Part shown: one piece after another, positions 2-54,534 of the stretch
How positions within the stretch are numbered: the stretch's first letter is position 1
Layout: the number at the start of each line of letters is the position of its first letter
From: Alphaproteobacteria bacterium MarineAlpha3_Bin2
GTDB lineage: Bacteria > Pseudomonadota > Alphaproteobacteria > Rhodospirillales > Casp-alpha2
NCBI GenBank assembly: GCA_002938315.1
Contig: PTLL01000008.1
Coordinates: forward strand, 1 to 54,534
DNA: 54,534 nt
Direction: 5' to 3'
Notes under the pieces: generated by a model
Told to the model about the DNA's origin: nothing
Databases searched by the model: none
The model's input: the letters and a program-made list of their open reading frames with translations, nothing else
Position numbers and translations under genes: made by a program

Positions 2-1018
2 GTCGCCGATGGGTCGATTGAGCGGACGATCCTTCCGTTAATGAGCATTTTGGCGATGTCAGCGTTTCTGCCGGTCTCCGAAATCGCCAATATTGGCCGC
101 CAGTTGGCGGATACCCTGGGGTCCACCCGTCGCCTTCATGCGGTAGAGCAGGAAGTTGTTACGGTCACCGATGGGGCAGGCGTGGACGACGCGGCCGCCA
201 GACGAAGCGGCGGCGTGTCGTTAAGCCTGGACCACGTCTATTTTTCCTATGCCGGCACCAATCGCCCGGCCTTGGCGGATGTCTCCCTCGATCTGCCGGC
301 GGGCAGCACGGTCGCCCTGGTCGGCCCATCGGGTGCCGGCAAGACGACGACGGCGAATCTGTTCATGCGTTTCTGGGACCCGGACCGGGGGGTGATCCGC
401 ATGAACGGCCGGGATTTGCGGGACTATGAACTCGACGACTTGCGCGAACGCATCGCGCTTGTCGCGCAGGACACCTATCTGTTTAACGACACCTTGCGCG
501 CCAATATCCTGATTGCCCAACCGGACGCGAACGATACTGACCTCGCCGAGGCGCTGGAGCGGGCCTCGTTGACGGCGTTCGTCGCCGGACTGCCCGACGG
601 ATGGGACACCCCGGTCGGCGAGCGCGGCATGCGCCTGTCTGGCGGACAACGCCAGCGGGTGGCGATTGCCCGCGCCTTTCTGAAGGACGCGCCGGTCTTG
701 ATCCTGGATGAAGCCTCCTCCCATCTCGACGCCATCAACGAGCAGGCCGTCCGTGCCGCGCTGAGGGAATTGATGAGCAAAAGGACCACAATCGTTATTG
801 CTCACCGCCTTTCGACGATCCGCAACGCCGATTTTATCGTCGTAATGGCGGATGGGCGAGTCGCTGAAACCGGAAGCCACGATACCTTGCTCGCTAGGAG
901 GGGCCTCTATGCGCGGCTCGTGGCGCACCAGCTTGCCGGGAACCGTGCGGTCTTTGAAGCGCACGGCAAGGTGCCGCAAGACACCTTGGACAAACTCGAT
1001 GGGCCAATCCTGCCATGA
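2..1018 (+). CDS. ABC exporter, C-terminal part (end of membrane domain plus ATPase)
   Basis: The reading frame is open from the window edge, so the 5' end is missing. The first ~50 residues look like the last transmembrane region and linker of an exporter-type membrane domain. The rest is a full ABC ATPase: Walker A GPSGAGKT at 323-346, a Q-loop VAQDTYLFND, the signature LSGGQ at 635-649, Walker B VLILDEASS and a switch His in IAHRLST. Half-transporters of this kind (CydC/MdlB/MsbA-like) dimerise and export small molecules, peptides or lipids across the inner membrane. The substrate cannot be told from this piece. The stop overlaps the ATG of a decayed gene (ATGA), so the two were once an operon. 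Confidence 0.9.
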   Translation, partial: VADGSIERTILPLMSILAMSAFLPVSEIANIGRQLADTLGSTRRLHAVEQEVVTVTDGAGVDDAAARRSGGVSLSLDHVYFSYAGTNRPALADVSLDLPAGSTVALVGPSGAGKTTTANLFMRFWDPDRGVIRMNGRDLRDYELDDLRERIALVAQDTYLFNDTLRANILIAQPDANDTDLAEALERASLTAFVAGLPDGWDTPVGERGMRLSGGQRQRVAIARAFLKDAPVLILDEASSHLDAINEQAVRAALRELMSKRTTIVIAHRLSTIRNADFIVVMADGRVAETGSHDTLLARRGLYARLVAHQLAGNRAVFEAHGKVPQDTLDKLDGPILP

Positions 1019-49099: not shown

Positions 49100-49152
49100 T
49101 GTCTCCTTCCTTACAGAAGGTCGCGCCCCGTTGGGGGGACGTGGCCCAGGGC
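49100..49152 (-). promoter_or_regulatory. serC-type leader RNA element
   Basis: Just before serC, on the minus strand, there is a C/G-rich hairpin (CCCC at 49136-49133 pairing with GGGG at 49129-49126, plus flanking pairs). It is followed by CCTTC, TGTAAG, GAAGG (49120-49105), which pairs over the ribosome-binding GGAAGGAG. Two short hairpins directly before serC, the second masking the ribosome site, match the serC RNA motif described in alphaproteobacteria (Rfam serC, by recall). It likely controls translation start. Confidence 0.65.
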
Positions 49153-50004: not shown

Positions 50005-51867
50005 TTAAATCCCATAGTACCAGGGCGCGAATAATGAGAATACAATCCACATCAACACGATCAGGGGGGTCCCGGCGCGGACGAAATCAATAAACTTGTA
50101 ATGGCCCGGACCCATCACCAACAGGTTGGTCTGGTACCCCAACGGCGAGGCAAAGGAGCAGTTGGCGGCGAAAACCACAGCGACGGCAAAGACCTGAGGC
50201 TCGACGCCCACCGCCACCGCCAAGTCAACTGCGATTGGCGTAAACAGAACGGCGGCGGTCTTGGTGCTGATGATATTGGATAGTCCGGCCACCAGCAGAA
50301 AGAATAGCGACAGGATAGTCGCCGGGCCTGCGTCCCCTAGCGTCGTTAATAGCCCCTGAGCAATGTATCTGGCGCCGCCCGTTTCCTGCAAGGTGACACC
50401 CAGCGCCAAAGCCGCCCCAATGGTGGTGACGATTTTAGGGTCCACGGCCTGGAAGGCCTGACGCACATTCAACACGCCCACCACCACCATCGCCGCAGCC
50501 CCCGTGAGGGCCGCCACCACAATCGGCACCACACCCGAGGCCGCCAACGCGAGGACGGTAATAAAAATTAAAGTTGCCCGTTTGGCGTGGTCCAGCACCG
50601 GCAATTCCTCGGCCGACCATTCCAACAAGACCACATCCCGAAAACGTTTCAACGCTGCGATGTCGTCAGGCTGCCCCTGGACCAACAGCACGTCGCCAGC
50701 ACGCAGACGGATTCCGGTGATGCGCTCGCGGACCATTCTTGACCGGCGCTGTAGGCCGAGCACAATGCAGTGGGTCTTATAGCGAAAACCGATTTGCGGC
50801 AGGGTCAATCCGGCCAGACCCGACGCCGGCGCGACCATCACTTCGGCGAGCGCTTGGCCACCTTCCAGCCAACGGCCGCCCGACGTCACTTGTCCGGGAA
50901 CATCGCGGTCTTCCTCCAAGTCCGGATACAACAACCCCGGATCCTCAGCTAGGAAATTGCCCAGCGCCTTACGGGTCGCCGAAACCACCAGGATGTCGCC
51001 GGGACGGACCGTGAAATCCTCGAACGGTGGCAGAATTGCCTGTTCGCCGCGCTGCACCATACGAAGGGTTTTATCCGGCAGGACCGAAAAATGGCCTCCC
51101 GGCGCACCTTTACCAACCAATTTGGATTCCGCCGTAACGGTGATCTGAGCGACGAAGTGCTTACCGTCACCGTCAACGATGCTATCGGCCATGCCAGAGC
51201 GGTCGGGTAGCAACCGCGGAGCGACCAGAAGGACATAGATAAGTCCCACCGATGCCATGACCAGACCGGGAATGGTAAAATCAAAAAACCCGAACGGCGT
51301 CGCCTTGACTTCGATCAGGGCTGAATTGACGAGAAGATTGGTCGAAGAGCCGATCAGCGTCGTCATACCGCCCAGCACAGAGCCGTAACTCAAGGGGATC
51401 ATCAGCTTCGAGGCTGAGCGCCCATATCGGTGAGCCAGGGCCTGCATGATCGGGATAAAGATGACGACGACCGGAATGTTGTTCAGAAACGCGCTGACCG
51501 CCATCGCCGCCACTAGAATTAACAGCAGCGAAACGGTCAGGCTTCCGCCGCCGACACCTAACAACAAGTTGGCGCCCCGGTCCAAGACCCCAGTCCGGAC
51601 CATGCCCTGACCCATGACCAAAAGCGCCAAAACCGTAATTAACGCGGGATTTGCGAAACCCTGAAGAATTCGCCCCGGGGTCAGTGCCGGAACGCCATCG
51701 TGAATGACCGGGAAGAAATGGAAAAAAATCAATAGGGCGCAAATAATTCCGAGCGACGTCACCTCCATGGCGGCACGCTCGAACACATAAAACACCAAGC
51801 CGACCAGGATGAAGGCGAAAACCGCCCACATCTGGAATTCCATCCCTGATCCCACTTCCAAAGTCAT
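50005..51867 (-). CDS. SLC13/DASS-family carrier with two RCK_C (TrkA-C) domains
   Basis: A 620-residue membrane protein. Helices fill residues about 10-215 and 430-620, including the DASS hallmarks SAFLNNIPVVVIFIPI and SSTNLLVNSALIE. Between them lie two soluble RCK_C domains (about 225-305 and 320-400). Such carriers move dicarboxylates, sulfate or other anions with sodium, and the RCK parts probably sense a ligand. The anion is unknown. ATG 51867 and ATG 51843 are both usable; the second has GTGGGATCAGGG before it. A CRP-like site lies about 105 bp upstream. Confidence 0.9.
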   Translation of the reverse strand: MTLEVGSGMEFQMWAVFAFILVGLVFYVFERAAMEVTSLGIICALLIFFHFFPVIHDGVPALTPGRILQGFANPALITVLALLVMGQGMVRTGVLDRGANLLLGVGGGSLTVSLLLILVAAMAVSAFLNNIPVVVIFIPIMQALAHRYGRSASKLMIPLSYGSVLGGMTTLIGSSTNLLVNSALIEVKATPFGFFDFTIPGLVMASVGLIYVLLVAPRLLPDRSGMADSIVDGDGKHFVAQITVTAESKLVGKGAPGGHFSVLPDKTLRMVQRGEQAILPPFEDFTVRPGDILVVSATRKALGNFLAEDPGLLYPDLEEDRDVPGQVTSGGRWLEGGQALAEVMVAPASGLAGLTLPQIGFRYKTHCIVLGLQRRSRMVRERITGIRLRAGDVLLVQGQPDDIAALKRFRDVVLLEWSAEELPVLDHAKRATLIFITVLALAASGVVPIVVAALTGAAAMVVVGVLNVRQAFQAVDPKIVTTIGAALALGVTLQETGGARYIAQGLLTTLGDAGPATILSLFFLLVAGLSNIISTKTAAVLFTPIAVDLAVAVGVEPQVFAVAVVFAANCSFASPLGYQTNLLVMGPGHYKFIDFVRAGTPLIVLMWIVFSLFAPWYYGI

Positions 51868-52772: not shown

Positions 52773-53096
52773 ATGATCGCGGTGATTTTCGAAGTGATCC
52801 TCGACCCCGAACAAAGCGATCGGTATTTTGACCTTGCCGCCGCGCTTCGAAAAAAGCTCGAAACGGTTGACGGATTCATATCCATCGAACGGTTTCAAAG
52901 CCTGGCCGATGAAACCAAGTACGTGTCGCTATCGTTTTGGCGCGACCGCGAAGCGGTCGAGGCCTGGTATCAAGTGCCCGAGCATAAAAACGCCCAGGAT
53001 GAGGGCCGGCAAGGCATCTTCCTGGATTACCGTATCCGCGTCGCCGAGGTCTTTCGCGATTATGATATGGCCCAAGGGCGCCCTTCTTCCGATTAG
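52773..53096 (+). CDS. Antibiotic biosynthesis monooxygenase (ABM)-fold protein
   Basis: A 107-residue ferredoxin-like-fold protein started at ATG 52773 behind AAGGATAAGGA. The motifs FISIERFQSLADE and LSFWRDREAVEAWYQVPEHKNAQDEGR are typical of the ABM family, which includes small cofactor-free oxygenases and heme-degrading enzymes. The substrate is unknown. It is divergent from the methyltransferase gene, with an 84-bp gap. Confidence 0.85.
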   Translation: MIAVIFEVILDPEQSDRYFDLAAALRKKLETVDGFISIERFQSLADETKYVSLSFWRDREAVEAWYQVPEHKNAQDEGRQGIFLDYRIRVAEVFRDYDMAQGRPSSD

Positions 53097-53104
53097 AGCC
53101 GCGC

Positions 53105-53132
53105 AAAAAAAAGCCGGGTTCGAAAACCCGGC
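53105..53132 (-). terminator. Intrinsic terminator of the minus-strand small RNA
   Basis: GCCGGGTT (minus, 53132-53125), loop TTCG, AACCCGGC (53120-53113), then eight T (53112-53105). It is a perfect 8-bp stem with a stable tetraloop. The T-run is only on the minus strand, and no minus-strand gene lies upstream of it in the window, so it ends a non-coding transcript. Confidence 0.85.
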
Positions 53133-53235
53133 GAGTTTAACAGGGAGGAGGTCAGGAGCGAGGGGTGTGGCCCCTGACCAAGAGTTGCTGCCATCTTAGG
53201 GGGGGCAATAAGGGAGGCGGCAACTCGATTGCTTA
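53105..53235 (-). ncRNA. Candidate small RNA with a CCUCCUCCC motif
   Basis: On the minus strand, stem I is GTTGCCGCC (53224-53216) with GGCAGCAAC (53192-53184), one mismatch, around a C-rich loop. Stem II is GGTCAGG (53179-53173) with CCTGACC (53156-53150), with an inner GGGG/CCCC pairing. Then CCTCCTCCC (53151-53143), a short linker and a strong terminator follow. CCUCCUCCC is the anti-Shine-Dalgarno motif I recall from Rhodobacter stress small RNAs (CcsR/cuckoo RNAs). The 5' end is not defined, and no DUF1127 gene is beside it. Confidence 0.55.
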
Positions 53236-53358
53236 CACACTAGAGTATTTATGTTTCCTGAATTTTTCGATCCGGTTTCAAAATGTTACAACATGTATCA
53301 TCATTGATTTATTTTAACCCGTTGAAACTAATTAATTTTTTTAACTTTTACGGCCCCA

Positions 53359-54387
53359 ATGAATAAAAAACCCGTTGAATTCCTGAAAATGTTGCACCGG
53401 GCCGGACTGGCGGACGAAGGCGAATCGCCGGTTTTCGAGGAATTGACCGGCGGTGTAGCTTCCGATATCTGGCTCGTCCATCTCCGACGGGGACCGGTTT
53501 GCGTCAAAAGGGCGCTGGCCAAACTGAAGGTGGCCCAGGACTGGCGGGCGTCCGTAGACCGCAACACCTTTGAGGCCGCCTGGTTGGAAACAGCCGCCCG
53601 CATCGTGCCCGGCGCCGCGCCCCGCGTACTCGCCCACGACGCCGACGCCGGAATGTTCGCCTTGGAATACCTGGACCCGGCACACTTCAAATCCTGGAAG
53701 GATGAATTACTGGATGGCCGCGCCATCCCCGCTTTTTCTGCCGAGGTCGGTTGGCGGTTGGGGCGAATTCATTCGGCCACCGCCGGCGACGGGGACATCG
53801 CCAAGCGATTTTCCACCGATGACATTTTTCACGCCATGCGCCTGTCCCCCTACCTGGAAGCCACCGCCACCGCACATCCCGCCTTGGCCGGACCACTGAT
53901 GGCCTTACTCGAAACGACCGCCGCCAACCATTTTGCCCTGGTCCACGGCGACGTCAGCCCTAAGAACATCCTCAACGGCCCCGAAGGCCCAGTGTTCCTG
54001 GACGCAGAATGCGCCTGGTACGGGGATCCGGCCTTCGATCTAGCCTTTTGCCTCAAACACCTAATGTTGAAATGCCTGGTCGTCCCGGCCTCGGCGGCGG
54101 AACTGCTGAAATGCTATGATGCCATGGTGGACGGTTATCTTGACACGTTGACCGATGAGCTTCGGGGCACCGGAAAGGAAGGCATCGAAGCCCGCACGGC
54201 GCGCCTGTTGCCCGGATTATTGCTAGCCCGCGTTGACGGTAAGTCGCCGGTTGAATACCTGACGCAAGAAACCGACAAGGACCGGGTGCGCCAGGCCGCG
54301 ACCGGGTTGCTGCTTGAACCGGTGTCCCGATTGGGTGATGTTCGCCGCGTCTGGGAGGAAGAGCTTTCCAAAGGGCAGAAGCGGTGA
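53359..54387 (+). CDS. Aminoglycoside-phosphotransferase-fold small-molecule kinase
   Basis: A 342-residue kinase of the APH/choline-kinase fold. The catalytic loop is [12 protein letters not shown] with Asp198 and Asn203; the metal-binding Asp215 is in [18 protein letters not shown]; the N-lobe Lys is likely in VCVKRAL. Its arrangement is closest to sugar or methylthioribose-type kinases rather than to drug resistance enzymes. The 262-bp upstream region is AT-rich. Its stop overlaps the GTG of the enolase-like gene (GTGA), so the two are coupled and probably act in sequence. Confidence 0.85.
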
Positions 54388-54534
54388 GCAAAACATCCAT
54401 CAAATCGACCCATGCGCGCCGGGTCTGGGACTCCCGGGGGCGTCCGACCGTCGAGGTCGAAATCACGCTGCGGTACGGCGCCCAGGGCCGGGCCATCGCC
54501 CCGGCCGGCGCTTCCATGGGCACCGGCGAGGCGG
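54384..54534 (+). CDS. Enolase-like gene, N-terminal part (cut by window edge)
   Basis: Fifty codons from GTG 54384. [17 protein letters not shown] matches the enolase N-terminus (..EILDSRGNPTVEVEV). The flexible metal-binding loop reads [12 protein letters not shown], where housekeeping enolase has VPSGASTGxxEA; Ser44 of GAS, the Mg ligand, is kept. The variant loop and pairing with a kinase suggest a second, specialised enolase rather than the glycolytic one. The rest lies outside the window, so no symbol is given. Confidence 0.75.

Follow-up and report, generated by a model that had tools for sequence, protein, structure and literature searches.

The closest described counterparts of the RNA reported here are small RNAs of Rhodobacter, Caulobacter and Sinorhizobium. 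SorX of Rhodobacter sphaeroides is cut by RNase E from the RSP_0847 mRNA (PMC6238624) and is described as an RNA of 3'-UTR origin (PMC6238624, PMC9275681). MmgR and SisA-D, of the alpha-r8 group, are small RNAs acting on mRNAs; in SisA-D the seed UUUCCUCCCU is unpaired and lies between a hairpin and the terminator, as is predicted for the seed of the RNA described here, and SisA of Caulobacter represses reporters via such a linker (PMC12559287). According to the same source, alpha-r8 genes usually adjoin an N-formylglutamate amidohydrolase gene, with extra copies elsewhere in Caulobacter. NfeR1 of Sinorhizobium pairs with mRNAs at their start region and so silences them (PMC10746234), and the alpha-r14 or cuckoo RNAs carry the motif CCUCCUCCC repeatedly, in unpaired stretches of three hairpins (PMC3927594, PMC10746234). 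A further RNA, CcsR, shares its transcript with a DUF1127 gene (PMC10253847). Alpha-r14/NfeR1 and CcsR have anti-Shine-Dalgarno seeds in common with an RNA encoded in the window, by which we mean the whole stretch of 54,534 nucleotides of contig PTLL01000008.1 that was analysed. The features of this locus are collected in Table 1.

Table 1. Features at and around the small-RNA gene (positions of the window).
Feature	Position	Strand	Remarks
Small RNA gene	53105..53230	minus	~126 nt; ends predicted from the -10 element (5') and the terminator (3')
Stem I with C-rich loop	53182..53226	minus	loop CCCCCCC at 53205-53199; fold and covariation
Stem II with C-rich loop	53150..53179	minus	loop CACACCCCTC at 53169-53160; fold and covariation
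Linker UCCUCCCUGUUAAACUC	53133..53149	minus	single-stranded, likely anti-Shine-Dalgarno seed; fold prediction and conservation
Intrinsic terminator	53105..53132	minus	8-pair stem 53132-53113, loop of 4, eight T at 53112-53105
-10 element TAGTGT	53237..53242	minus	TAnnnT in 15 of 15 orthologs
Half-site GAAACA	53252..53257	minus	in phase with the box; conserved across orthologs
Conserved box TGTAACATTTTGAAAC	53275..53290	minus	putative response-regulator site; two half-sites 10 bp apart
APH-type kinase gene	53359..54387	plus	divergent neighbour; beside 10 of 15 orthologs
Enolase-like gene, start (enolase N-terminal domain)	54384..54534	plus	truncated where the window ends; beside 14 of 15 orthologs
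ABM-domain gene	52773..53096	plus	convergent; beside all 7 genus orthologs and 0 of 8 others
CitMHS/TrkA_C transporter gene	50005..51867	minus	beside 10 of 15 orthologs

The reality of the small-RNA gene is settled by its conservation and covariation; judged from these comparisons it is a genuine gene of about 126 nt with a predicted start. The two stems, the motif CCUCCUCCC and the terminator with eight U that the initial annotation had placed on the minus strand are all present and agree with the predicted fold, and its reading as a structured minus-strand small RNA is supported, with a conserved promoter footprint of the RNA's own. Within the window no gene on the minus strand was recognised upstream of the RNA, as had also been stated there: the genes at 53359-54387 and from 54384 onward lie on the plus strand. 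The RNA as a whole is beyond chance, its fold reaching -54.6 kcal/mol against a shuffle mean of -38.7 (sd 3.7; z -4.27; 0 of 200 shuffles as good). Taken singly, neither motif nor terminator is: a terminator scan of 53500-52700 found one where 1.3 are expected from shuffles, and the 2.27-Mb genome contains 14 copies of CCTCCTCCC, the form of the motif at 53151-53143 of the minus strand, and 7 copies of the reversed control. Stem I contains one C.A mismatch in the window RNA, the position being C-G in the other five genus sequences. The possibility that the RNA hides a protein was rejected; reading frames of at least 10 codons, judged by eye, are not common to the 15 orthologs.

When 100 relatives, among them the window genome, were searched at the DNA level, near-full-length matches appeared in five sister genomes (80-87% identity); the majority of the remaining matches are confined to about positions 88-135 of the 136-base query, and in G002 a 45-base match covers the stem I part. 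With a covariance model built from six genus members (R1), the whole RNA was recovered at E 6.2e-29 or better in seven of the ten genus genomes, the remaining three (G002, G008 and G009) giving weak matches only. R1 matches occur in 20 of 48 family genomes at E 1e-7 or better, in 63 of 387 genomes of the class (90% complete or more) at E 1e-5 or better, and in 81 of the 100 relatives at E 0.001 or better, these last being mostly matches of the 3' module. Orthology was assigned by gene neighbourhood at 64 loci no longer than about 3 kb, so that more distant neighbours are missed; 15 of these loci, one per genome, carry the neighbours of the window RNA and the other 49 show none of those genes. 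The syntenic orthologs thus number 15 in the 48 family genomes and are spread over five genera (seven in g1, four in g3, two in g9, one each in g5 and g6). None was found in the other 33 family genomes, including G002, G008 and G009 of the genus; several of these assemblies are incomplete.

Two of the orthologs, in G030 and G035, have decayed, with minimum free energies of -24.9 and -24.0 kcal/mol, an altered seed and a weakened terminator. These decaying copies, of genus g3, lie at L094 1501-1616 and L098 820-935; in L098 the transporter matches fall in two separate pieces. A scan with the kinase gene gave at least 562 loci, and two of the best 80, which were examined, have an R1 match. The sequence L124 is the G013 locus, and L195 holds a weaker R1 match (39.4 bits) some 3.5 kb from the kinase gene and in the other orientation, which was excluded from the orthologs. 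By their record titles, the kinase relatives among the at least 562 stretches span several proteobacterial classes and some other groups.

Covariation of the stems in relatives, proposed earlier as the check on the structure, was examined, and compensatory changes were found in all three helices. Among the 15 orthologs 94.6% of the cells pair and both sides have changed in 17 of 30 pairs (9 of 11 in stem I, 3 of 10 in stem II, 5 of 9 in the terminator), rising to 27 of 30 pairs in 32 matches from 30 loci, both totals coming from alignments fitted to the model and hence biased towards it. The 15 orthologs reach a covariation score of 0.394; shuffles give 0.220 (0 of 500), and sliding gives no more than 0.132. 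RNAalifold on a MAFFT alignment of the same 15 sequences yields 24 pairs, 14 of them changed on both sides, and retains all of stem I and the terminator together with four pairs of stem II, where this alignment has a one-base slip in several genera.

CcsR itself carries CCUCCUCCC in loops, and the initial annotation, which took CCUCCUCCC as the defining motif, had compared it with the CcsR stress RNAs of Rhodobacter. The motif is present in the window genome, as a CcsR- or cuckoo-type RNA would require, but in a single copy outside the hairpin loops, lying partly in the base of stem II and partly in the linker, and in one of the 15 orthologs only, namely that of the window. No DUF1127 match was obtained among 10 reading frames scanned around the RNA, which bears out the remark that no such gene is visible and, together with the placement of the motif, leaves membership in the CcsR/cuckoo type with next to no probability. 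The first two C of CCTCCTCCC are paired in stem II in the predicted fold, so that UCCUCCC is its free part. What the orthologs conserve, rather than CCUCCUCCC, is the open linker CCUCCCUGU before the terminator: CCTCCCTGT is kept in 13 of 15 orthologs, and in those 13 its mean unpaired probability is predicted at 0.77-0.99. The exposed anti-Shine-Dalgarno stretch proposed earlier is in this form supported by the predicted fold. As a marker of further RNAs CCUCCUCCC was tried and discarded; nine other copies, of the 14 in the genome (L001-L008 and window 714-722), were inspected by eye and lack a terminator-like T run. Two of these nine resemble the antisense of a Shine-Dalgarno site.

At their own cut-offs the Rfam models gave no match at the RNA; the one match in the window is a serC leader (RF00517) at 49100-49151 of the minus strand, with 51.6 bits. 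The nearest family is SorX (RF02784), which aligns over the whole model at 41.3 bits (cut-off 46.6; E 1.2e-8 for 551 bases searched). A diverged copy of this Rhodobacter singlet-oxygen RNA, belonging to the SorX family proper, would explain the whole-model match, the 44.0 bits of the G004 ortholog and the arrangement common to both, in which a ACCUCCCUGUU-like linker separates a hairpin from the terminator; both RNAs have a hairpin, a CCUCCCUGUU linker and a strong terminator. However, the 14 other orthologs also stay below 46.6 bits (12 are listed at 25.2-44.0 bits, two are unlisted), and the three of 100 relatives that pass the SorX cut-off do so at other loci. Unlike SorX, the window RNA has an extra 5' stem I and its own conserved promoter footprint and lies outside a 3' UTR, no gene having been recognised before it on its strand in the window. 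We therefore regard true membership in the SorX family as unlikely.

The alpha-r8/suhB model (RF00519) scores the window RNA at 23.3 bits, against a cut-off of 41. Separate alpha-r8 genes above the cut-off are found in G003, G006, G007, G008 and G009; three of these genomes have the window RNA as well, and the alpha-r8 gene of G003 adjoins an N-formylglutamate amidohydrolase gene. The window RNA is situated elsewhere than the usual alpha-r8 copy, between the ABM and APH-type genes. Its earlier designation as a possible distinct family holds insofar as the ortholog group lies below every Rfam cut-off; the layout then given as the distinction, in which the motif occupies the linker separating a hairpin from the terminator, is that of SisA-D (PMC12559287) and SorX. 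The window RNA would work like these RNAs, and membership in none of the tested families is supported.

The alignment of the sequences upstream of the 15 RNAs is free of gaps over columns 47-119. The consensus GWWACATTTnGAMA recurs about 46-59 bp before the predicted start, the G or GA at its ends being invariant and its inner letters conserved in 13-15 of 15 orthologs. Another conserved G is located at 53268 (13 of 15), so that G stands at four positions spaced by 10, 11 and 11 bp in 15, 15, 13 and 15 of the 15 orthologs, respectively. A scan of 53500-52700 by strict consensus found no sigma-70-type promoter. OmpR-family regulators bind phased half-sites (PMC9275681), and the box is most likely, from its sequence, the site of a response regulator of this family. 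It does not match the ChvI motif of Caulobacter, given as TTGC-N3-GCAA (PMC9731502), and differs from the CenR motif TGA-N8-TGA in spacing and in the second half-site (PMC9275681); GlnR boxes of the form GTnAC-n6-GTnAC/GAAAC are similar in look (PMC3087709). ChvR of Caulobacter and OmrA/OmrB of E. coli are different RNAs from the window RNA; they are under OmpR-family response regulators (PMC6237742, PMC12559287), a control of the sort that probably applies here too. Six sites with at most two mismatches to the box occur in the genome, as compared to two for a control. The five other than the one described here (1-2 mismatches) gave no recognisable regulon: two are in genes, two at reading-frame starts and one between genes. 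The promoter footprint is clear enough to hunt for the regulator.

Outside the genus of the window, in the orthologs of the four other genera, the transporter gene comes immediately after the RNA and has the same orientation, an arrangement that would suit a cis-acting leader or attenuator of this gene. Yet in the genus of the window the RNA is intact although other genes separate it from the transporter, and by eye TAnnnT occurs 6-7 nt before the ATG in seven of eight transporter starts, that of the window included (the G035 start has TGCATT, and that of G013 is ambiguous). This pattern suggests that the transporter has a separate promoter and a leaderless mRNA. Since the transporter has an apparent promoter of its own and the RNA persists where genes intervene, we take the RNA to be free-standing, and a leader or attenuator function is highly improbable. 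The gene, as far as its sequence indicates, comprises its own promoter footprint and its own terminator.

We consider it probable that this free-standing gene encodes a trans-acting small RNA which, under a response regulator, covers ribosome binding sites. An activator, most likely an OmpR-family response regulator, would bind the phased half-sites and drive transcription from TAGTGT, giving an RNA of about 126 nt with two stems bearing C-rich loops, the open linker UCCUCCCUGUUAAACUC and the terminator. The seed CCUCCCUGU of the linker, conserved in 13 of 15 orthologs and predicted to be exposed, would pair, perhaps together with the C-rich loops, with the Shine-Dalgarno regions of several mRNAs and thereby block the initiation of their translation. 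The isolated linker piece binds a fully matching site at a calculated -18.5 kcal/mol and GGAGGA at -9.8. The U tail would recruit Hfq in those carriers that have it. Hfq was found in eight of the ten genus genomes and in 49 of 61 relatives; the same search of the ten genus genomes did not find it in the window genome or in G001, where its absence is perhaps due to assembly gaps. NfeR1 (PMC10746234) and ChvR (PMC6237742) indicate that such RNAs can work without Hfq.

Sites of the form ACAGGGAGG-N3-10-ATG number 27 in the ten genus genomes and nine for the reversed control, an excess that any Shine-Dalgarno-like word might give, and this search picked out no single target. Three genes recur among these sites in two species each; two have no Pfam match in their first 70 residues and one is of the aconitase family, which we take to be leuC. 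The seed might instead engage other G-rich RNAs, the window RNA acting as a sponge or decoy. Such linkers do meet RNA partners, since the CrfA RNA of Caulobacter pairs with the linker of SisA-D (PMC12559287), but in that case the sponge is the G/A-rich RNA, whereas the C-rich RNA regulates mRNAs (PMC12559287), and for the C-rich window RNA we consider a sponge role very unlikely. Regulation of mRNAs at their ribosome binding sites is the preferred reading.

With this function the RNA would add a conserved regulator, below every Rfam cut-off, to an alphaproteobacterial group of mostly metagenomic genomes. That 81 of 100 relatives have R1 matches, for the most part to the 3' module, suggests that SorX, SorY and alpha-r8 may be branches of one superfamily. 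A more far-reaching reading combines two parts, namely a new ortholog family of anti-Shine-Dalgarno RNAs under direct OmpR-family control via the four phased half-sites, and its being at the same time a branch of a class-wide superfamily of CCUCCCUGUU plus terminator that links SorX, SorY and alpha-r8 by descent; in this combination we advance it tentatively, as possible but rather more apt to fail than to hold. In the literature searched, whose coverage leaves out most subscription journals so that an earlier description is possible, CUCCCUGUU led to cancer topics only, and small RNAs of Rhodospirillales led to work on Pelagibacter only. The literature retrieved with CCUCCUCCC includes rhizobial RNAs.

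Further R1 matches of the window genome lie at G000:C36:63827-63967 (plus strand, 36.0 bits) and G000:C83:3715-3836 (minus strand, 44.7 bits); several genus genomes contain 61-nt SorX-type counterparts of the former, scoring about 30.7 bits. Additionally, the same 3' module, consisting of CCTCCCTGTTnAAC and a terminator, is found at G000:C47:13237-13315 on the plus strand (L204, about 1738-1816) and at L039 1501-1567 on the minus strand. In the window genome and in G077 this module follows a LysR-type gene of the same strand at a distance of 200-250 bp, and the G077 copy passes the SorX cut-off with 52 bits. The LysR-adjacent CCTCCCTGTTnAAC module perhaps represents a second RNA family of the order, of the 3'-UTR type.
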